From IMG/VR virus record IMGVR_UViG_3300006638_000198, positions 1 to 22,801 of that record: a stretch of 22,801 nt of DNA; one strand, written 5' to 3'. Shown here piece after piece: positions 3,701 to 13,950 of the stretch. Position 1 is the stretch's first letter. Every line of letters starts with the position of its first letter. The notes beneath the pieces are model-generated. The model was not told where the DNA came from. It did not search any database and saw only the letters and a program-made list of their open reading frames with translations. This stretch comes from a virus. The position numbers were made by a program, and so were the translations under genes.

Positions 3701-5354
3701 GTTGTTTCAGTTCGGATTGATACTCGTTCGTGTGCAGGGTGTCGCCCGCGCCGCCGAGATATTTTCCCGTCTCGCCGTAGTGGTCGTTCATTTTCACAGT
3801 CTGATTCGGATGCACGCCGAGTTTGTCGAGGATCGGCTCGACATCGCGCACACCTTTGTACTGCCAATCGTCGGGACGGTCGAGATTGCTTTTGCTGGCG
3901 GCGGGCTTGTCGGCAGTTTCGATGATGATGTTGCCACGGTTCTTGAGGAGACCTGCCGACTGTTTGAGCGCGTCAACTTGTTCGGGAGTCACGCCGTCTT
4001 TGGGGACCGTAAAGGTGAACGTTTCGCCCGCCTGATGATTCATCTGTGGAGCAACACGAATCGTTTTTGCATCGTTTATGAAATTCGTCCGACCTGATTC
4101 GTCATTGCCGTACTGCGCGCCTTCGGGAACAGACCCGAGCGCGCCTGCGTGAGTGTTCGCTCCGATGGTTGAGACTTTTCCGTCAGGTCCGATAAAACTC
4201 GGTTCAGTTTTCATTTTATCCGAAACATCGCCGACACCAAATTTTTGGCGAACTGCGTCGAGCGCGGGATGAATAGGCGCTGCAGCGGCCACAGTTTCGG
4301 CAGGTTTAGCGGGTGTCGTGCCCGTGGTTCCGCCGTTCGCTTCAAGAAAACTGATCGCCTTCTCGGGCTCCAAATCCGTCACATGCTTGTATGCACCCGG
4401 TTGGGTGAACTCCATGCTGATTTCGGTTGCGTTGGAATTTCGAATGGCGTCGGCGATCTTGGCGCGCGTGTCGGGATTCTTGATGTCGCCAGCTTCGAAG
4501 TGCAGGAGATTACCGCTCGTACCCAACGTAGCGACACGAACGTCACCGTTATTGATGGCGGCTTGGGTGTCGCGGTCTGGTGCCATGTCTTTGTGACTCA
4601 GCCCATAAGGAATTTCTTTGAACCCGTCCTTGGTGATCCAGCCGTCCGTATCGACAGTCGGTGCCGCAGGCTTTTCGGGCGCGCGCACTTCTATTCCACC
4701 GACTCCGCGCAACTGCCCGCCCGGTTTCGGTTTTACTATCGGAGAGATTTTCTTGCCGCCCACTTTCGCGAGTGAGACACGTCCTGCTTCGGAACTTCCC
4801 TCGGGCGCTTTCGCTTCGAGCGCAGCCTTGCCTTCTTCCGCAACCCCTTTGGCGAAATTTTTGCCCGTCTCGGCGAGGTGCGCTCCCACCTCCGGTGCAG
4901 CTTCTAAACCTTTTTCGCCCATGCCGACGTTGACGAGCCCGCCTGCGACCGCACCCGCCATGCCGGGGATATCCCCACGCTTTAGTGCCTCGGCGAATTC
5001 GGGACCGCCTGTGATGCCAGTAACCGTATCCACAGGATGATGAACTAGCTGGTACGCTAATTCTACGGGCATCATGACCGTGGACTTTCCTGTTTTCTTG
5101 ACAGACTCCAGCGGGTTGTTGTACAGGTCTTTCAGTTCCGAGATGGCTTGGTCTATGGGGTGCGGCGTGCCGACCGTAGTTTGACTGAGGTTCTGCCCAA
5201 ACCCCGTGGCGGGGGTTTCAGCATTCGTTGAAACAGGCGCGGCGGGTGAAACTGTGGGAGGCGCAACAGTAGGATTACCGCCAGCACCCAAGTCAGAAAC
5301 GGGGGGCGCGGGCGGCGGCGTCGGAGTCGGTAGGGTCGTGCTGTCGGTTGCCAT
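759..5354 (-). CDS. Giant multidomain phage protein with FtsH-like zinc-protease motif
   Basis: 1531 aa, probably an internal or ejected virion protein (inference). Residues 1-60 are Pro/Thr/Ala-rich and low in complexity, and residues 130-145 are Gly/Ala-rich and hydrophobic. Two loosely similar segments follow (about 236-340 and 361-482). A zincin motif HELGHA is at 630-635, followed by GGIAADEAF at 693-701; this pairing resembles peptidase M41 (FtsH: HEAGH, then GGRAAEE), with E697-D698-E699 region residues as third-ligand candidates, but no AAA ATPase is present. Residues about 1090-1400 contain SPQKDWNQN, VTADTHH and YPRQLQSVVWVEWR, which recall a module of large phage proteins that I associate from memory with DUF7178. 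The C-terminus is Ala/Lys-rich. The ATG at 5354 has TAGGA upstream, overlapping the previous stop. Gene 908-1099 is nested in another frame near the 3' end. The family name and function remain uncertain. Confidence 0.85.
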   Translation of the reverse strand: MATDSTTLPTPTPPPAPPVSDLGAGGNPTVAPPTVSPAAPVSTNAETPATGFGQNLSQTTVGTPHPIDQAISELKDLYNNPLESVKKTGKSTVMMPVELAYQLVHHPVDTVTGITGGPEFAEALKRGDIPGMAGAVAGGLVNVGMGEKGLEAAPEVGAHLAETGKNFAKGVAEEGKAALEAKAPEGSSEAGRVSLAKVGGKKISPIVKPKPGGQLRGVGGIEVRAPEKPAAPTVDTDGWITKDGFKEIPYGLSHKDMAPDRDTQAAINNGDVRVATLGTSGNLLHFEAGDIKNPDTRAKIADAIRNSNATEISMEFTQPGAYKHVTDLEPEKAISFLEANGGTTGTTPAKPAETVAAAAPIHPALDAVRQKFGVGDVSDKMKTEPSFIGPDGKVSTIGANTHAGALGSVPEGAQYGNDESGRTNFINDAKTIRVAPQMNHQAGETFTFTVPKDGVTPEQVDALKQSAGLLKNRGNIIIETADKPAASKSNLDRPDDWQYKGVRDVEPILDKLGVHPNQTVKMNDHYGETGKYLGGAGDTLHTNEYQSELKQPYSIAITDKGGAEHFEPIDAFSSKDALKVAQKKFPDATDWSIDKTGKREPAAGYSVPTNKLLSLPESGSNRTPVQTMRHELGHAMVGANEGLTQRGMLRHTHMDAHGRMRAAVRWDASDVMQPGTRLIKTEKLPGMIKTFMGGIAADEAFNDIPRSANRNFDFDKSHSDGGQAYRFLKDAGFSHEESVEYMHKMIDSAKEYLTQPHVADIIKENENVREPGLSRQYHYSSERLQQMHEEALRRGQNGNPDNAAVNGGGVENRAADDARGEGKAAGANKEVGWNDILPEKITTAEVKSDKDEDATSFNFGANAPEKPAAKPWAKIVAAHNEAGGSTFNLAQNKNMAGTDNFAVSTHPDRTVEVKGKLTPKAVQDFAAKNADLLKDPTESLGTWLRPKDGVHVLDVVKTIPDRAEAVQLGHDHAQDAIFDMKQGKEIFMKDEPQKTPNGNISESQQAATPESSRTGTQLGNRISSRFPTATNATEDPMGHDLTLDASMIHQRPAIAQRLADKLLAQNKSMKFTPEELKTPKGILDSFVRHAKDNIKAMYEHVTPENRIQDREWYDGAHEIGNKDAKASGLEPRQNWAAIASQSPQKDWNQNVSLYERLTDTVLNKSDVKFTPEMQTKATDFIRDIAEANQKKIAKGKKPTTPWVDTNLIQNLKGKSLSDLSDPVEKAAFVRIYDEAHNPREFHELAPDGSKKGIMMLAGTNTPEKVAWGGLNSIAKGISVLQDGSLENISRNLGEAHKVRSFYNNIAEPESEHGDVTADTHHVGLSLMRPVAGDDPETGLNFGGNGSTITGVHGSYPLYVEATRQAMHEINAEHPNDPPMKYPRQLQSVVWVEWRKVFPPETRTAETKADVDNIWKEHLDGKITADEARKQVFDYAEKLRSRLDAGTRSSADEGKLPADKLSGAGNSRGSGGGPASRVVDKKLDAQAKTAAQSEAARVAKNKADLADFVARSAAKKAGMTKGISGLAKPKKK
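908..1099 (-). CDS. Nested 63-aa phage protein inside the 3' end of the giant gene
   Basis: 63 aa, wholly inside the 1531-aa gene but in a different frame of the same strand. The ATG at 1099 is preceded by a perfect SD (AAGGAG, 7 nt spacer), stronger than that of most genes here. The protein has a polar Lys/Ser/Thr start and then a well-formed segment including NYVLDWMRAHEVPLTKENYL and an acidic tail ending DLPPELWTKS. From memory this resembles a common short phage protein type with a pattern like PLTRENYL followed by an acidic end, whose function is unknown. In the same interval the giant protein is low-complexity Ser/Gly/Ala/Lys-rich, so the nested frame looks the more constrained over its downstream part. 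Translation would come from the same mRNA by internal initiation. No domain or catalytic residue can be named. Confidence 0.7.
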   Translation of the reverse strand: MEKSQPTKPESKSSTTPKNYVLDWMRAHEVPLTKENYLQINYLGQEIPEGAEEDLPPELWTKS

Positions 5355-5954: not shown

Positions 5955-6581
5955 CTATGAAATTCCGATTTCGGGCTCGACCGCGCCCAACACAACTTCG
6001 AATTCGAATTCACCTTTGTCGGTGAGGTAGCATGCGACGATGCCGCCCGGTGCGACGGCTTCCGCCACTTCGCCGATGCCCATGAAATGCTTGATGACTG
6101 AATTATGGATCGCGAAGACGGACGGGTATCCGTCGATGGGGCACGCCATGTACTGGGCGAGCACTTGAATGCGCTGCTCGAATTGTTGGAGACTTTCGCC
6201 GCCCGGAATCGGTACGGTCGGGTTATCGACGTAATATTTGAACTTGGCGATATTTTCGGGAGTCTTTTCTTGTCCGGTGAACCCGGCGACCATCCACGCT
6301 CGCAGGTTCGGGTCAGTTCCTAATTGCGGGCAGCACACACAGCACTCGTTCAGGATGATTTCTCCGGTTTGAGTTGTGCGCGCCAGATCGCTACAAATGA
6401 CACGCCCGATTTTTTCGAAGGATAAATACTGTGCGGCTTTCTCGGCGGACATGAGCCCGGTTTCGCTCAACCCATATGCTCCCCAGCCATCCCAAGAATT
6501 CATCGACTGAAGTTCCCCGTGGCGCACCATGTATCCAACTAAAACGCGGTTCGGATTCAAATTAAACATTGTACCATCCAT
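5955..6581 (-). CDS. Histidine phosphatase (phosphoglycerate mutase-like)
   Basis: 208 aa, branch-1-like histidine phosphatase superfamily, which forms a phospho-histidine intermediate and removes phosphate from sugars, nucleotides or proteins. The core is intact: the nucleophile motif RHGE at 20-23 (H21), the second arginine in SDLARTTQTGEII (R68), the acid E129 in GGES, and the second histidine H159 in AIHN. The GL-S-TG--SAEKAA stretch at 37-50 is also typical. A Cys-rich loop NECCVCC sits at 79-84. The ATG at 6581 lies inside the last codons of the zinc-ribbon gene (20-bp overlap); an in-frame ATG at 6569 is possible. The SD is weak, so coupling to the upstream gene is likely. The substrate cannot be read from sequence. 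A metabolic or signalling enzyme inside a late operon is an accessory-type gene. Confidence 0.88.
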   Translation of the reverse strand: MDGTMFNLNPNRVLVGYMVRHGELQSMNSWDGWGAYGLSETGLMSAEKAAQYLSFEKIGRVICSDLARTTQTGEIILNECCVCCPQLGTDPNLRAWMVAGFTGQEKTPENIAKFKYYVDNPTVPIPGGESLQQFEQRIQVLAQYMACPIDGYPSVFAIHNSVIKHFMGIGEVAEAVAPGGIVACYLTDKGEFEFEVVLGAVEPEIGIS

Positions 6582-6739: not shown

Positions 6740-6814
6740 TGGAGCCCCGTGGGGGAATTCAACCCGCCTTCTCAGAGTTACGGGCTCTGCCGTCTAGCGT
6801 TGACATAACGGGGC
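6740..6814 (-). tRNA. tRNA-Thr (CGT), divergent
   Basis: 75 nt with encoded CCA. The acceptor stem GCCCCGT/ACGGGGC pairs perfectly over 7 bp, the D stem is TGTC/GACG, and the anticodon stem CAGAG/CTCTG is perfect. The 7-nt loop CCCGTAA gives anticodon CGT. G1-C72, C2-G71 and anticodon G35-U36 fit known threonine identity elements. Odd points are C instead of the near-universal U33, T-loop TTGAATT instead of TTCAAAT-type, one mismatch in the T stem, and a D loop without GG. A 29-codon frame with a good SD (6759-6848) overlaps it. It is a tRNA gene by fold; function is less certain. Confidence 0.6.
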
Positions 6815-6865
6815 ATTGTGTCGTTCCATCTGTGCCTGCGTCTGTCATCGTCTTTCTCCTCGAAG

Positions 6866-6939
6866 TGGAGCGGACTGCGTGAATCGGACACGCTTGTTCT
6901 GGGTGGAAGCCAGATGCCCTGCCAATAGGCCAAGCCCGC
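6866..6939 (-). tRNA. tRNA-Gly (TCC)
   Basis: 74 nt with encoded CCA. The acceptor GCGGGCT/AGTCCGC forms 7 bp (one G-U) with U73, the usual glycine discriminator. The D stem is GCCT/GGGC with GG in the loop. The anticodon stem TCTGG/CCAGA is perfect and its loop CTTCCAC gives anticodon TCC with U33 present. The T stem GCGTG/CACGC is perfect. The T loop TCCGATT has C where U55 is normally found. It lies 8 nt after tRNA-Met, and the spacer starts TTTTATG as after the Thr gene. Confidence 0.88.
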
Positions 6940-6947
6940 ACATAAAA

Positions 6948-7023
6948 TGGTAGCGGAGGTTGGAATCGAACCAACGATCTTCGGTTTATGAGACCGACAA
7001 AGTAACCACTGTTCTACCCCGCC
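6948..7023 (-). tRNA. tRNA-Met (CAT)
   Basis: 76 nt with encoded CCA. The acceptor GGCGGGG/CTCCGCT forms 7 bp, with G-U at the terminal 1-72 pair and at 6-67. The anticodon stem TCGGT/ACCGA is perfect, with loop CTCATAA giving anticodon CAT. The T stem GTTGG/CCAAC is perfect with a canonical TTCGATT loop. The D stem is weak (GAAC/CTTT, three pairs). Anticodon CAT could also be a tRNA-Ile read through lysidine; the resemblance to bacterial Met tRNAs around the anticodon arm favours Met. The terminal G-U leaves initiator versus elongator unresolved. Confidence 0.88.
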
Positions 7024-7029
7024 ACAAAT

Positions 7030-7080
7030 TGGAAGCGAGAACGTGCGTTTCTGAGCGATGCTCAGGCGTGGATTCTCGCC
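7030..7080 (-). ncRNA. Minimal tRNA-like element, 51 nt, no D or T arm
   Basis: A 7-bp closing stem GGCGAGA/TCTCGCT (terminal G-U, as in the neighbouring tRNA-Met) is followed by T and an encoded CCA. Inside there is only one hairpin, CTGAG-CATCG-CTCAG, flanked by 8 and 10 nt. It starts 3 nt after the previous element and ends 6 nt before tRNA-Met. It looks like a tRNA acceptor stem carrying one arm. It could be a degraded tRNA, a processing hairpin or a functional minimal RNA. It is not a canonical tRNA and no anticodon can be assigned. Confidence 0.4.
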
Positions 7081-7083
7081 ATC

Positions 7084-7160
7084 GTAGACGACTCGCGTTT
7101 CCTCCCACAGTATTGTGATCGGGGAGTGCCGCTGTGCTCGTTGCCAAGCCAGCCGTCTAC
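7084..7160 (-). ncRNA. tRNA-sized three-way-junction RNA element
   Basis: A perfect 7-bp end stem GTAGACG/CGTCTAC encloses 63 nt. The first internal arm is GCTGGCT (loop TGGCAACG) AGC-A-CAGC, a D-arm-like hairpin with GG in the loop and one bulge. The second is CTCCC/GGGAG closing a 15-nt loop. About 11 unpaired nt follow where a T arm would be, and no CCA is encoded. The total of 77 nt is exactly tRNA-sized, but the anticodon and T loops are not canonical. It could be a decayed tRNA or a distinct structured RNA. Confidence 0.4.
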
Positions 7161-7169
7161 AAATAAGTC

Positions 7170-7276
7170 TGGTGCCTGTCGGGACTACGGGATTCAACTC
7201 CCTGAAACCGACGACCTTCGTACAGTACTTGCGCGCTTTCCTGTACGCTGTTCCCTCATGGATGAACTCAAGCACC
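7170..7276 (-). ncRNA. Expanded cloverleaf tRNA-like element, 107 nt
   Basis: An 8-bp acceptor-like stem GGTGCTTG/CAGGCACC (one G-U) is followed by A. The D-like arm is GTTC/GAAC with a 10-nt loop. The central arm CGTACAG/CTGTACG is 7 bp with a 15-nt loop. A T-like stem GTCGG/CCGAC encloses 25 nt that itself holds a GGGA/TCCC hairpin. The order of arms is that of a tRNA, but the anticodon and T loops are greatly expanded. A shorter reading, GCTTG/CAGGC, would leave A plus an encoded CCA. It could be a tRNA with small insertions, a pseudogene or a new RNA class. Confidence 0.4.
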
Positions 7277-7284
7277 TAAAATTT

Positions 7285-7340
7285 AGCGGCTCGCCGAGCA
7301 CCGACGAACTAAGCCCTCGCGAGTTCCCCGAGGAGACCGC
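7285..7340 (-). ncRNA. Short three-way-junction RNA element, 56 nt
   Basis: The end stem GCGG/CCGC (extendable by weak pairs) encloses two hairpins: CCTCG/CGAGG with a 9-nt loop, and TCGTCG/CGGCGA (one G-U) with the 5-nt loop GTGCT. It is bracketed by two copies of the spacer ATTTTAGGT (7350-7342 and about 7283-7275), similar to the A/T-rich spacers that follow the true tRNAs, so it behaves as one unit of the array. There is no T loop, no anticodon arm of normal size and no CCA. Confidence 0.35.
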
Positions 7341-7350
7341 AACCTAAAAT

Positions 7351-7426
7351 TGGTGGACCCGAGAGGACTTGAACCTCCAGCCTCCTGAGTGCAGGTCAGG
7401 CGCGCTACCAGTTGCGCCACGAGCCC
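7351..7426 (-). tRNA. tRNA-Ala (TGC)
   Basis: 76 nt with encoded CCA; first gene of the RNA cluster, about 11 nt after the predicted transcription start of P2. The acceptor GGGCTCG/CGGGTCC contains the G3-U70 pair that defines alanine identity, with A73. The D stem is GCGC/GCGC with GG in the loop. The anticodon stem CCTGA/TCAGG is perfect, and the loop CCTGCAC gives anticodon TGC. The T arm is GGAGG-TTCAAGT-CCTCT. Position 33 is C instead of the usual U, so the anticodon loop is slightly unusual. Confidence 0.88.
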
Positions 7427-7444: not shown

Positions 7445-7473
7445 AATATGCACCAAACGTTAAATATTGTCAA
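7445..7473 (-). promoter_or_regulatory. Sigma70-like promoter P2 for the tRNA cluster
   Basis: Minus-strand TTGACA (7473-7468), a 17-nt A/T-rich spacer, then CATATT (7450-7445). The -35 is a perfect consensus and the -10 matches 4 of 6. The predicted start near 7437 leaves a short leader before tRNA-Ala. The 15 nt AGATTTCGCTTGACA spanning the -35 are identical to P3. The upstream gene's TAG stop lies at the head of this element. Confidence 0.75.
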
Positions 7474-10191: not shown

Positions 10192-11265
10192 CTATCTCTT
10201 TGTCGCAAATCGCTCGATAAATGCAGCGTTCGGATCGATGTGATTCGCAATCAAACTCTCTTTGTATGCAGCAAGAATCTGTGCAGGAGACGCGTCAGCA
10301 GGAATATCTATCGCCGCGTTCATCGCACCAGACGCCGCAGGCGAAACAGCCGTCGGTGCGGGTCCAGAATTTTTTCCGAACATCGAAGATGATGTCGGTG
10401 CGGTTCTCACGGGCTCTACGACGGCAGCCACGACGGGAGCAGCAACAGCAGCGACAACAGGTGCCGCGACCGCCGCTACAACAGGAGCCGCAGTACCTTC
10501 AGCTTCGTAAGGAAACACAGTCTTCGATGCCTTCATCGATTCGTAGGCTTGCGTGATCGCGGCAAGTTTGTTGTCCGCGTCCACGAGTCCGAGCCCTGCG
10601 ATGGTCATACCCAAAATTTCTTTGTTGCGTTCCCCACCCGGCCAGTCAGCGCCAGCAGCGGAGTTCAGGAATTCCTGTGTCGCATCCGACCACGACTGTT
10701 CGAAGCCTCGGCCACGATTCTCTTGGATCGCACTCTTTAATTCACTGAGTGGGACGCCTTGCTCTTCGAGATAATCCTTGATGGCTCCCGACTGTTCGAG
10801 ATACTGCTTCGCGTTGATGTCACCACGCTTGAATTGCAGTTCGAGTTCAGCGCGATCTGAAACGAGTTTATCGGCAGCGGCTCTCTCGGCGGCGAGTTGG
10901 GCAGCATCGGGTACATGCTCCGTCTCGGGGACCTGTTGGGCGTTTTGAAATGCGGTAGCTACCGTATAAGCGTTGTTCACGGTGCGCTCAAGTTCAAGTT
11001 CGGACTCGGCGTCGAAGGTGAAACTGCGCCCGCTAATTTCAACGGTGCGGGTATAGATTTTCGGTTCGGAGGTAACGGCGGCAACTCGGGCGGCAGCGGC
11101 TGCGGCAGTATCTGCGGCAACTTTATCCGCAGTAGCTTGGGCCACAGCTTCGGGAGTGAATCCCTGCTTGATGGCTTCGGCTATGACTGTTTCGCGGATG
11201 TCGGATGAATTAACTGCGTTATCGATAGATTTCTTCAGTTCGTCGTTCACAACTAAGTCGCTCAT
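10192..11265 (-). CDS. Head scaffolding-like protein
   Basis: 357 aa. Residues 1-65 are helical and Ala-rich. Residues 115-185 are highly charged and probably coiled (AAERAAADKLVSDRAELELQ). Residues 188-245 (SWSDATQEFLNSAAGADWPG and onward) match from memory a segment common in phage proteins encoded just before the capsid gene. Residues 260-283 hold three copies of APVVAAVA, followed by a Pro/Ala/Ser-rich stretch and a short C-terminal helix (AQILAAYKESLIANHI), which could be the capsid-binding end. Charged, helical, low-complexity proteins directly upstream of the capsid gene are typical scaffolds that shape the prohead and then leave. The ATG at 11265 has an AGGAG SD. No protease motif is seen. 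The function is inferred from composition and gene order. Confidence 0.75.
   Translation of the reverse strand: MSDLVVNDELKKSIDNAVNSSDIRETVIAEAIKQGFTPEAVAQATADKVAADTAAAAAARVAAVTSEPKIYTRTVEISGRSFTFDAESELELERTVNNAYTVATAFQNAQQVPETEHVPDAAQLAAERAAADKLVSDRAELELQFKRGDINAKQYLEQSGAIKDYLEEQGVPLSELKSAIQENRGRGFEQSWSDATQEFLNSAAGADWPGGERNKEILGMTIAGLGLVDADNKLAAITQAYESMKASKTVFPYEAEGTAAPVVAAVAAPVVAAVAAPVVAAVVEPVRTAPTSSSMFGKNSGPAPTAVSPAASGAMNAAIDIPADASPAQILAAYKESLIANHIDPNAAFIERFATKR
10417..10488 (-). repeat. Three tandem 24-bp units in the scaffold gene
   Basis: Three adjacent, imperfect 24-bp units each encode APVVAAVA (last residue V in the third). The DNA has drifted at wobble positions while the peptide is kept, which points to selection on an extended Ala/Val/Pro linker rather than a recent duplication. 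Confidence 0.7.
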
Positions 11266-11301: not shown

Positions 11302-11712
11302 CTACTCACCTACTGCGTAAGAACCTGCTGGTCGGGAATCCATCTCGTCGAACTTCGTCAGAACCTGCTGCCGCACATAGTCGCCCTGATCGATGGCGTC
11401 GGCTGCGGTCGTGGGTGTGGAAAAATTCGGTGAGGACGCTTCGGCGATACCTTGCTCGATAGCCATGTTGATTCGCACAAGTAAGGCGTTGTGATGTTCC
11501 TGTGCTACCTTGGCACGAACGTGCAGCGTGAACAGTTGGTCCTTGTCCCAGCCGGGAAAAGTATTCGCGGCCATGGTCGCTTCGTTGACAAGAGCCTGCG
11601 AAATGCGGATGACATCCAAGAAACCCGGATTGGATCGAACGCTCAAAAGTCGATTTGCTATTTCTCCCGCTGGTGTCGAGACCGACACGAACGGGCTTGA
11701 TGGGGAATTCAT
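11302..11712 (-). CDS. Conserved-looking small phage protein between portal and scaffold
   Basis: 136 aa, start ATG at 11712. It is largely helical. The core stretch LVNEATMAANTFPGWDKDQL followed by LHVRAKVAQEHH resembles, from memory, small phage proteins of unknown function that lie between portal and scaffold genes, with a shared FPGWDKD motif. No Cys, membrane helix or catalytic motif is visible. The C-terminal 30 residues are polar. It lies 12 nt after the portal stop, and its stop is followed by the perfect inverted repeat GAAATAG-A-CTATTTC. A role in head assembly or DNA packaging is inferred only from position. Confidence 0.75.
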   Translation of the reverse strand: MNSPSSPFVSVSTPAGEIANRLLSVRSNPGFLDVIRISQALVNEATMAANTFPGWDKDQLFTLHVRAKVAQEHHNALLVRINMAIEQGIAEASSPNFSTPTTAADAIDQGDYVRQQVLTKFDEMDSRPAGSYAVGE

Positions 11713-11724
11713 GGTACGCTCCGA

Positions 11725-13950
11725 TTAACTACCGCCAAAGGCGGAACTATCCATCTTCGTGAATGCCGACCGTGCCGCTCTGTCGAGACCCTGTGCTTCC
11801 GGCGTGCTCTGTGCCGCCTTGTTCTGGGCCAAGTCGTTCGCTGCGTCAGTCTGCTTCCCGTGCTCATTCAGCGTATGCTCCCCAGTTTTCAGGAGCATGC
11901 GATTCTCTGCTTGGTTGTTGTCCACACCTTTCTTCACTTCTCCCTGCGCCTGAATCATGGCGAGTTTGCCTTGAGCCTGCGCAGCCTTGGTCTGCTCGAA
12001 GCGGCGTTGCTTATCTTCGTCGGTCATCGGGACGATAATCTTTTCCTTGTACGGGACGCCGAAGGTATCGAACAGCGCTTCGAACATGCCGTTGAAGTCG
12101 ATCTTCATCGCCTGCACAGCAAGGTTCTCGACCGTTCCGGGTGACTGGATGAATGTTTCCAACACGCCCATGTACTTGTTCAACGCTTCGCGCGCCGCGA
12201 GTTTGGTACCTGCGGAAATATCCACCTTGTAGGTTCCGTTGATAACGTCGAGCGGCGTCGCCTGAAACGCTTCCCCAAGTTCCTGAGACAGCATGGCACG
12301 AATCTGCGACGGCTTCAGCTTCCCGTTACGCTCGATACAGAATTCAAGAAACGGAATGAATACCTGTTCGGAAATAACGTCGATGAGGTCTTGGAGTTTC
12401 ACAGTCTCGCCGCCCGAGATGGCATCCACTCCTGCGGGAGTACGCATGTCGCCAGCCGCGCCGGGATTTGCGCCGAGCGTACCCGGACCCGCGCCCGTTA
12501 CGGAGGCTGCCCACGTTTTCATCTGTGCGATGACCGTCAGCGGTTCCTTGGCGTCGATAGCATTTCGAGTCATCGGCTTCATTTCGCCGTTCGGATCAGA
12601 CTTGAATACTTTGCCGGGGAATATCCACTGCGCTTGCGCGGTGTTGTTGAGTCCCGCAGGCGACGTGTAAGTTCCCATCAGGTTCAGGTTCATGTCATCC
12701 AAATACGCGTTGATGACGCCCTGACAAATACGTTGGAAGTCGGTCAGCCAAAATGCGATTCCGTATCCTGCGGCGGCGTCGGGAGCATTGCGGAAGCAGA
12801 ACCCAAGGAACGGCGGTCGCCCGAAGTTGTGGGTCTCGTTGAGCAGAACGTACTCTTTATTCAGAATCACACAGTGACGGTCTGCCGTCCAGTAGTCGAA
12901 GCATTCGAATTTTCGTGCGAGCGGATCGTGTGCCGTACGTTCGGTGTAGTTTTCGGGGTACGCCTTCTGTGGCGTAGTCGTCTGCTGGAAAATCGGATTG
13001 CCAGTATTCGACCCGAGAGTTTCGAGCGGGTTTGTGGCGGCAGTATCCTGCATCTGCGGCGTAGTAATCTTCACAATCTGTTCGCGAGTCGGAATCTTCC
13101 AACCCACGGTGTTGCGAAGCGAATCCAAGTCATAACCAGTCGGGTAAATGATGCGACCGAACCAATCTGCGACTCGCGGGTCTCCCCTGCGGAGGTCTGG
13201 TGCGTACCGAGCACGTCGCAGCGGCACGTGTTCCAGCACGGGCATGTTAATTTCCAAAACTTGTGTCGTCGCTTCGATGTCGTCTTCGTCGGCGGTCGGA
13301 ATATTGACGGAAACGTCGCCGATACTCACGCTTTGTATTTTATTTTTCTGAACTTGCTTGATAATGTTCTTTTTGATGCAATTCCAACCGTAGTGGGCGA
13401 CTCCGAAGCCGTAAAACAGTCCGTCGTACGTGATTTCCCGCATCTCGGTCTTAGCCGACACGCCTTTGTACCCGCAGGTCTTCAATTCCGCCTTCAAAAG
13501 TGCTTCCTGAGCGAGTGCACACTCCAACGGCGTCCCAGAAGTGGCGTCGACCTTGAGAACGCGGTATCCGCCGAACAAAGTCTGGTTCACGACACTGTGA
13601 ATGCTGTAAAATTGCTCCGCGACGAGCGGAATTCCCAAATGCGAGCGAAATTGTTCGCTCCCTTTCCACTTGATGGGCTCGACCCACGCGCGCAACATGA
13701 TTTCCGCCATGTTCCAGCGTCCGATTAGCCCGCGTGTGGCGATAAACTGCTCGCTTTCCTCGCGGTTGAGGTTCGCTTCCTTCAACATGGACAAATCGCT
13801 GCGTCGCTGGTCAGCGAAAGCGACTTCGGTGGGTCCGATTGGGAGTGCTGTTTCTCCGTAGGGTACCGCCCCGGGTAAATCGAGGATACGCATCTGTCCC
13901 AAGTCGGCAAAATGCGTGGTTGCTCGGATATTCGTCTCGTTAGAAGCCAT
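11725..13950 (-). CDS. Portal protein
   Basis: 741 aa. It forms the dodecameric ring at the head vertex through which DNA is packaged and leaves. The length is close to the large portals of N4-like podoviruses. Residues about 60-130 contain NREESEQFIATRGLIGRW and a conserved-looking region around the QFYSIHSVVNQTLFGG segment. The middle part (LNKEYVLLNETHNFGRPPFL, then AYLDDMNLNLMG) fits the portal clip and wing. Residues about 480-530 (TGAGPGTLGANPGAAGD and AISGGETVKLQDLID) fit the stem/crown helices. The last 100 residues are Gln/Ala/Lys-rich and probably coiled (AQAQGKLAMIQAQGEVKKG). The ATG at 13950 is preceded by GAGAG. It follows the terminase with a 36-nt gap. The call rests on length, segment order and location between terminase and scaffold. 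Confidence 0.82.
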   Translation of the reverse strand: MASNETNIRATTHFADLGQMRILDLPGAVPYGETALPIGPTEVAFADQRRSDLSMLKEANLNREESEQFIATRGLIGRWNMAEIMLRAWVEPIKWKGSEQFRSHLGIPLVAEQFYSIHSVVNQTLFGGYRVLKVDATSGTPLECALAQEALLKAELKTCGYKGVSAKTEMREITYDGLFYGFGVAHYGWNCIKKNIIKQVQKNKIQSVSIGDVSVNIPTADEDDIEATTQVLEINMPVLEHVPLRRARYAPDLRRGDPRVADWFGRIIYPTGYDLDSLRNTVGWKIPTREQIVKITTPQMQDTAATNPLETLGSNTGNPIFQQTTTPQKAYPENYTERTAHDPLARKFECFDYWTADRHCVILNKEYVLLNETHNFGRPPFLGFCFRNAPDAAAGYGIAFWLTDFQRICQGVINAYLDDMNLNLMGTYTSPAGLNNTAQAQWIFPGKVFKSDPNGEMKPMTRNAIDAKEPLTVIAQMKTWAASVTGAGPGTLGANPGAAGDMRTPAGVDAISGGETVKLQDLIDVISEQVFIPFLEFCIERNGKLKPSQIRAMLSQELGEAFQATPLDVINGTYKVDISAGTKLAAREALNKYMGVLETFIQSPGTVENLAVQAMKIDFNGMFEALFDTFGVPYKEKIIVPMTDEDKQRRFEQTKAAQAQGKLAMIQAQGEVKKGVDNNQAENRMLLKTGEHTLNEHGKQTDAANDLAQNKAAQSTPEAQGLDRAARSAFTKMDSSAFGGS

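Follow-up and report, generated by a model that had tools for sequence, protein, structure and literature searches.

Structured RNAs between the tRNA genes of a phage array include a probable former tRNA with a maintained palindromic loop

Small stable RNAs encoded among tRNA genes are already annotated in phages T4 and T5. In the T4 record these are rnaC and rnaD, the species 1 and 2 stable RNAs, which lie next to the tRNA genes. In the T5 record, RNA1 and RNA2 are described as "tRNA-like stable RNA with unknown functions" and RNA3 is given as putative, and four more stable RNAs (RNAI, RNAIII, RNAIV, and RNA2H) are annotated in the tRNA cluster. GOLLD and ROOL are also phage-encoded, often lie near tRNA islands, and are homo-oligomeric, with conserved kissing loops (PMC12286853). 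The array studied here belongs to a 22.8 kb IMG/VR virus record, which was analysed at its whole length and is called the window below. Its minus strand carries genes for a terminase, a portal-like protein, a major head protein, and endonuclease VII. With the major capsid protein as query, 59 related IMG/VR loci were retrieved, most of them >90% identical and some on contigs of 96–99 kb; individual loci are cited below by L numbers. In the window some 1.7 kb separate the capsid gene from the tRNA array downstream of it, and the array is directly followed by a histidine-phosphatase gene (Pfam PF00300; 5955–6581, minus strand). A gene of the histidine-phosphatase superfamily is also located downstream of the array position in 40 related loci. 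The order on the minus strand is tRNA-Ala, units A, B, C, and D, tRNA-Met, tRNA-Gly, and tRNA-Thr (CGU), and the features are listed here in that direction.

7445–7473, minus strand: promoter-like site TTGACA, 17 nt, CATATT, 10/12 by consensus scan, just upstream of tRNA-Ala.
7351–7426, minus strand: tRNA-Ala (TGC), canonical, first in the array (ARAGORN; Rfam RF00005, 62.8 bits).
7286–7340, minus strand: unit A, a three-way junction with a 4-bp GCGG/CCGC end stem, a hairpin with the 9-nt loop GNNNNCUCG, and a second hairpin; kept in L029 and L023.
7171–7276, minus strand: unit B, a tRNA-like cloverleaf with P1 of 7 bp, P2 of 4 bp, P3 of 7 bp with a 15-nt loop, and P4 of 5 bp; five phages, compensatory changes.
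7231–7236, minus strand: GCGCGC, the self-complementary central hexamer of the unit B P3 loop (7226–7240), candidate kissing-loop dimer site.
7082–7162, minus strand: unit C, a three-way junction with an end stem of at least 9 bp and a GCAA tetraloop hairpin (fold).
7030–7080, minus strand: unit D, 51 nt, with an 8–9 bp end stem, a single hairpin, and an encoded discriminator and CCA (fold).
6948–7023, minus strand: tRNA-Met (CAT), canonical (ARAGORN, Rfam).
6866–6939, minus strand: tRNA-Gly (TCC), canonical (ARAGORN, Rfam).
6740–6814, minus strand: tRNA-Thr (CGU), divergent, with encoded CCA (Rfam RF00005, 38 bits for 6743–6814; fold).

From the candidate promoter before tRNA-Ala the whole array would be driven. 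The tRNA-Thr (CGU) at 6740–6814 was not reported by ARAGORN. Its anticodon loop is CCCGUAA, with C at position 33, where U is near-universal in tRNAs, and the same loop is present in L033 (11403–11477). At ~4820–4896 of L029 there is a divergent tRNA-like gene with a Met anticodon and an ACCA end, which neither ARAGORN nor Rfam reported.

The units are encoded among tRNA genes and on the same strand; the stable RNAs of the T4 and T5 tRNA clusters likewise lie between or beside tRNA genes. rnaC and rnaD resemble them as two small stable RNAs next to phage tRNA genes; however, they are larger (139 and 119 nt), and rnaC keeps a CCGGGUUCGAAUCCCGG T-arm. The T5 RNAs are also small and interleaved with tRNA genes on one strand, and RNAIII has a long end stem, but RNA1 reaches 24 bits with the tRNA model and RNA2 keeps a UUCGAAU T-loop, neither of which is found in unit B. 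GOLLD and ROOL, unlike the units, are ornate RNAs of several hundred nt; their Rfam models matched nothing at the gathering score in the window and nine related loci, and relaxing the limit to E up to 10 brought up no match in the array either. The searches made detected no sequence relation of unit A, unit B, or family E (described below) to the T4 and T5 stable RNAs, GOLLD, or ROOL, and nucleotide searches of named phages and plasmids returned no match. An earlier note on this DNA had considered a new class of phage structured RNA. That the locus encodes structured RNA is supported, but this kind of RNA was already annotated in T4 and T5. The families, the evidence of a conserved passage from tRNA to another RNA, and the maintained palindrome are new with respect to the searched libraries and open papers.

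The four stem-closed units that the note placed between tRNA-Ala and tRNA-Met are present on the minus strand of the 7024–7350 gap. Neither ARAGORN nor Rfam recognised anything on the sense strand of this gap, even at E up to 10; Rfam at relaxed thresholds gave nothing credible for the units, and neither program matched a tmRNA in the window. The overall shapes drawn before hold, with the end stem of unit C at 9 bp or more and not 7. In the window unit B has an end stem of 7–8 bp, a 15-nt loop on its third arm, and an enlarged fourth loop. One arm of unit C can also be drawn with a 15-nt loop; the loop proposed to be common to both is thus common in length, but the sequences differ. Tiling of the gap by end stems of at least 7 bp gave P = 0.26 by count and P = 0.045 when weighted by summed length; judged from the window by itself, the end stems exceed chance only by a narrow margin. 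Single-sequence fold z-scores were −0.1, −2.4, −2.6, and −4.1 for A, B, C, and D, respectively. Since the true tRNAs of the same array reach only −0.7 to −1.7, these z-scores cannot decide on the units.

Alignment of the array with the related loci revealed copies of unit B in L023, L031, L006, and L029 (n = 5 with the window). The 7 bp of P1 appear as GGUGCUU/AGGCACC, GGUGGGU/ACCCACC, and GGGGUUU/GAACCCC, and those of P3 as CGUACAG/CUGUACG, CGUACGU/GCGUACG, CGUACGG/CCGUACG, and UUCAAGG/CCUUGAA; P4 (4-5 bp) occurs as GUCGG/CCGAC, GCGGU/ACCGC, AGCGG/CCGCU, and GCGG/CCGC, and P2 is GUUC/GAAC (4 bp) with AUGA in its loop. In this alignment 94.7% of the cells are paired, with both-side changes at 12 of the 23 pairs. 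None of 500 shuffles equalled this combination of pairing and both-side changes, and when the partners were slid by one column the pairing fell to 32–41%. All five sequences, folded singly, adopt the same four-arm shape, so the fold is conserved, and AUGA, GAAA, AAGUA, and AAGG are conserved as unpaired sequence. Compensatory changes in relatives had been set beforehand as the test of function, and they are present for unit B (five sequences) and for unit A (three), all from one phage group. Pattern scans of IMG/VR for A and B returned only phages already found, no copy of either unit was detected elsewhere in the related phage records, and IMG/VR seems exhausted for this phage group. Extra matches of a relaxed unit B pattern in IMG/VR were due to chance; the covariance model failed them.

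A conserved stretch could also correspond to a small peptide or part of an ORF, given that mechanical ORFs cross the array, for example, one of 165 aa at 6778–7275. However, the P3 loop of L031 contains an in-frame stop, L006 carries an indel in the D-like arm, and the changes fall on base-pair partners and not on third positions of codons. The peptide-coding reading was rejected on these three observations, and its probability is practically negligible.

Unit A was recovered in L029 and L023 (n = 3 with the window, from the same comparison of arrays). Its 15 pairs in three helices are 97.7% paired, with both-side changes at 3 pairs; 42 of 500 shuffles were as good, with three sequences only, and its covariation is modest. 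A model of unit A matched only the three copies, at 78–84 bits, the next best match being at 17 bits. Units A and B are neighbours in either order, with A before B in the window and L029 and B before A in L023. In the window the unit A loop is complementary to part of unit B (GAACUC/GAGUUC); neither L029 nor L023 keeps this match, and the idea was dropped. Profile searches found no relatives of units C and D. Both fold well; the fold z-score of unit D (−4.06) was equalled by 0 of 200 shuffles, and this unit carries CCA. C and D may be further members of the array, or decayed genes.

A covariance model of unit B (R1) was built from its five members and run on 747 kb of related loci, T4, and T5; for the control (R3) the same five sequences were complemented base by base, which keeps the fold apart from G-U pairs. 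In the related loci, R1 placed its own five members on top, at 77–109 bits. Among the next seven matches, five are tRNA-Ala or tRNA-Met genes in full register, and all seven are when near-identical copies are counted. Two tRNA-Ala matches have E = 6.5e-4 and a tRNA-Met match E = 0.009, the E-values of short-calibrated models being rough. The best four R1 matches in T4 are annotated tRNA genes, and so are the best six in T5, tRNA-Asn having E = 7.5e-6. rnaC and rnaD were not matched in T4, and none of the T5 stable RNAs was among the top matches. R3 matched no tRNA in the related loci, T4, or T5; R1 finds tRNAs and a control of the same fold finds none, and therefore the cloverleaf shape alone is not the reason for the match. 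This tRNA signature of unit B is visible in the AAGGUCG stretch of the variable loop. With canonical bacterial tRNAs unit B has in common a plan of stems of 7 bp (acceptor-like), 4 bp (D-like), and 5 bp (T-like), the AAGGUC variable-loop stretch, and the covariance signal. Because of the covariation and the contrast between R1 and R3, unit B is very probably a former tRNA under selection.

This ancestry is also what would be expected if the units were tRNA genes at different stages of decay, kept only through transcription of the array. Borderline divergent tRNAs occur in the same arrays (Thr-CGU in the window, the Met-like gene in L029), and C and D are without relatives, both of which agree with decay. 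But the stems of B and A are kept by compensatory changes across divergent phages, and unit B conserves features foreign to tRNAs: the 15-nt loop, AUGA in the second loop, and the palindrome. When the note listed decaying tRNAs among its readings, it was correct about the tRNA ancestry of B and not about the present status of B and A. Judged from the aligned copies, decay is already contradicted for unit B and largely for A, and as an account of all the units it is quite improbable.

Unit B differs from a canonical bacterial tRNA in its anticodon loop, T-loop, 3′ end, and RF00005 score. A 7-nt anticodon loop on a 5-bp stem is absent, its place being taken by a 7-bp stem with a loop of 15 nt in four copies and 35 nt in the fifth. 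There is no UUCRANY T-loop. AG directly follows the end stem in four copies; in L006 the end stem is followed by AGCCA, with CCA one base out of register. Neither the window copy nor the L029 copy of unit B was scored by RF00005, even with E up to 10 allowed. Lacking the anticodon loop of 7 nt, the T-loop, and the CCA end, the predicted RNA cannot serve as a decoding adaptor, and the functional reduced tRNAs once suggested for these units are unlikely for both B and A, which are devoid of anticodon loop, standard T-loop, and CCA.

The units might instead act as decoys for tRNA-cutting host nucleases or CRISPR effectors, that is, anticodon nucleases or tail cutters such as Cas12a3. To bait anticodon nucleases in the classic way, an RNA would need a normal anticodon loop. 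B and A are without anticodon loop and CCA, the parts that such enzymes usually read, and no defence system has been linked to the host of the phage. The location in a phage tRNA array and the tRNA mimicry of unit B are nevertheless in line with a decoy, as are the rapid turnover of unit types among related phages and the encoded CCA of unit D, which would suit a tail-cutting enzyme better than B does. Cleavage of tRNA tails as a defence has been published (PMC12851939). We consider decoys unlikely. In 15 related records, mostly fragments, a search for RNA repair genes gave 1 RNA ligase match above the cut-off and 0 RtcB.

The P3 loop of unit B is GAAA-GCGCGC-AAGUA in the window and in L006, GAAA-GUGCAC-AAGUA in L029, and GAGG-CUGCAG-CAGUA in L031. 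It has 15 nt in four of the five copies, and in these four the central hexamer is self-complementary despite the changes of letters and occupies the same position of the loop. The loop of L023 (8245–8280) is enlarged to 35 nt by a triplicated 10-nt unit, GGGAAAGCGC; here GAAAGCGCGG is found in triplicate, and the last copy, GCGCGU, is self-complementary only with G-U pairs. The central GC of the hexamer is always kept. With the observed numbers of substitutions, the joint probability of keeping the palindrome under neutrality is ~2.5e-4, in a post hoc test on few copies. In L031 a small intramolecular hairpin of the loop is also possible.

The dimerisation initiation site (DIS) of HIV-1 presents the same arrangement, a GC-rich self-complementary hexamer preceded by purines in a hairpin loop, and GCGCGC and GUGCAC are common to both. 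In the DIS these two hexamers are favoured and the central G-C pairs are needed (PMC5874298). The DIS loop has 9 nt, unlike the 15-nt loop in the tRNA-like cloverleaf of unit B, and the likeness is one of mechanism only, with no kinship. From the palindrome kept amid changes of letters, together with the HIV-1 DIS pattern, we infer that unit B forms kissing-loop homodimers. In T5 (L140), RNAIII (6285–6390) has a long end stem and carries UCUAGA, a 6-nt palindrome, in an apical loop; this is perhaps a second palindromic loop in an RNA of a tRNA cluster.

The spacers of the array were also compared. In this phage group TTT follows within 11 nt at 25 of the 34 inner tRNA 3′ ends (background 13%) and within 14 nt at 7 of the 8 copies of A and B. 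The likeness between the spacers of units and true tRNAs noticed earlier is thus borne out, U-rich runs following both, and the units follow the spacer rule of the array. Such alternation of stem-closed units with tRNAs, with U-rich spacers common to both, would fit passive processing or spacer elements whose stems separate and protect the tRNAs and which have no role in trans. In the relatives, however, many neighbouring tRNAs are <12 nt apart with no such unit between them, and the conserved unpaired motifs of unit B and its palindrome are needless for spacing. Passive spacers have, in our opinion, only a small chance of being the explanation.

Further structured units populate these arrays. 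Closed units with an encoded CCA end number 14 against 4.6 expected, among them unit D, certain divergent tRNAs, and some copies of a family that we call E. Family E, without a copy in the window, has two stems, of 5 bp and 10 bp, with a variable tip and is present in at least 10 related arrays; 98% of its cells are paired, with both-side changes at four pairs. It can be written CCCACGGAUGGCGCGCGGCGGCA...GUCGCGCAGACCAUC, is often found right after tRNA-Ala, and occurs in L006, L007, L009, L019, L023, L031, L035, L038, L042, and L043. A CCA-ended family with a GCCGG/CCGGC end stem is located in L032 (~3830–3905) and L033 (~11200–11265), with GAUAGACGNNAGGAACC and GUGAAAUCC in common, and no copy of it was found in IMG/VR beyond these two loci. 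L019 carries, directly after tRNA-Trp, a 60-nt CCA-ended mini tRNA-like element with no recognisable D arm (10440–10498). Array stretches in L043 (~11585–11770) and L019 (~10620–11130) are enclosed by GGGGAAUUAUAUAGAUGACUCCCUU, an almost perfect inverted repeat of 24 bp, and possibly represent a mobile element or a long-stem RNA. Mapped on a capsid and phosphatase protein tree, whose support is mixed, the units have a scattered distribution, requiring a minimum of 4 state changes for B, 2 for A, and 9 for E; like tRNA genes, they are gained, lost, or exchanged. With the histidine phosphatase as query, no further array-bearing phage group was found in IMG/VR or GTDB genomes.

The explanation that we favour, with a probability of about two in three as a whole, is that the tRNA array is a small-RNA operon in which tRNAs and several unrelated, separately evolving structured RNAs would be co-transcribed, with unit B acting as a dimeric tRNA mimic. 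Transcription would start from the promoter-like site before tRNA-Ala, and host tRNA-processing enzymes would cut the transcript at the U-rich spacers, giving stable unit A and unit B RNAs as functional members. Unit B would derive from a tRNA whose acceptor, D, and T stem plan (7/4/5 bp) and variable-loop sequence were kept, whereas the T-loop and CCA were lost and the anticodon arm was replaced by the 7-bp stem with the 15-nt loop. Two unit B molecules would pair loop to loop through the 6-nt palindrome. In trans, the dimer might then mimic a tRNA and occupy a protein of the host that binds tRNAs, the candidate targets being a tRNA-directed defence nuclease or a tRNA-handling enzyme. Among the roles considered this one is the likeliest; taken by itself this last step is rather unlikely, and the explanation up to that step is clearly probable. 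A broader proposal, tentative and somewhat doubtful, is that unit B would be the founder of a class: a tRNA rebuilt as a self-dimerising RNA, with a palindromic kissing loop in place of the anticodon arm, whose two-elbow dimer would work for or against the host tRNA-binding machinery, the array being a mobile cassette of such RNA tools, among them A, B, and E, that related phages exchange.

Stable RNAs of the type known from the tRNA clusters of T4 and T5 now have relatives, covariation, and a concrete, testable mechanism. In phage arrays, tRNAs evolve into other kinds of RNA, and the standard tRNA finders leave such gaps of the arrays unannotated. If the kissing-loop dimer is real, a self-assembling former tRNA would be a new solution in the conflict between phage and host, and unit B would stand beside the large RNA-only assemblies GOLLD and ROOL as a small and tractable cousin.
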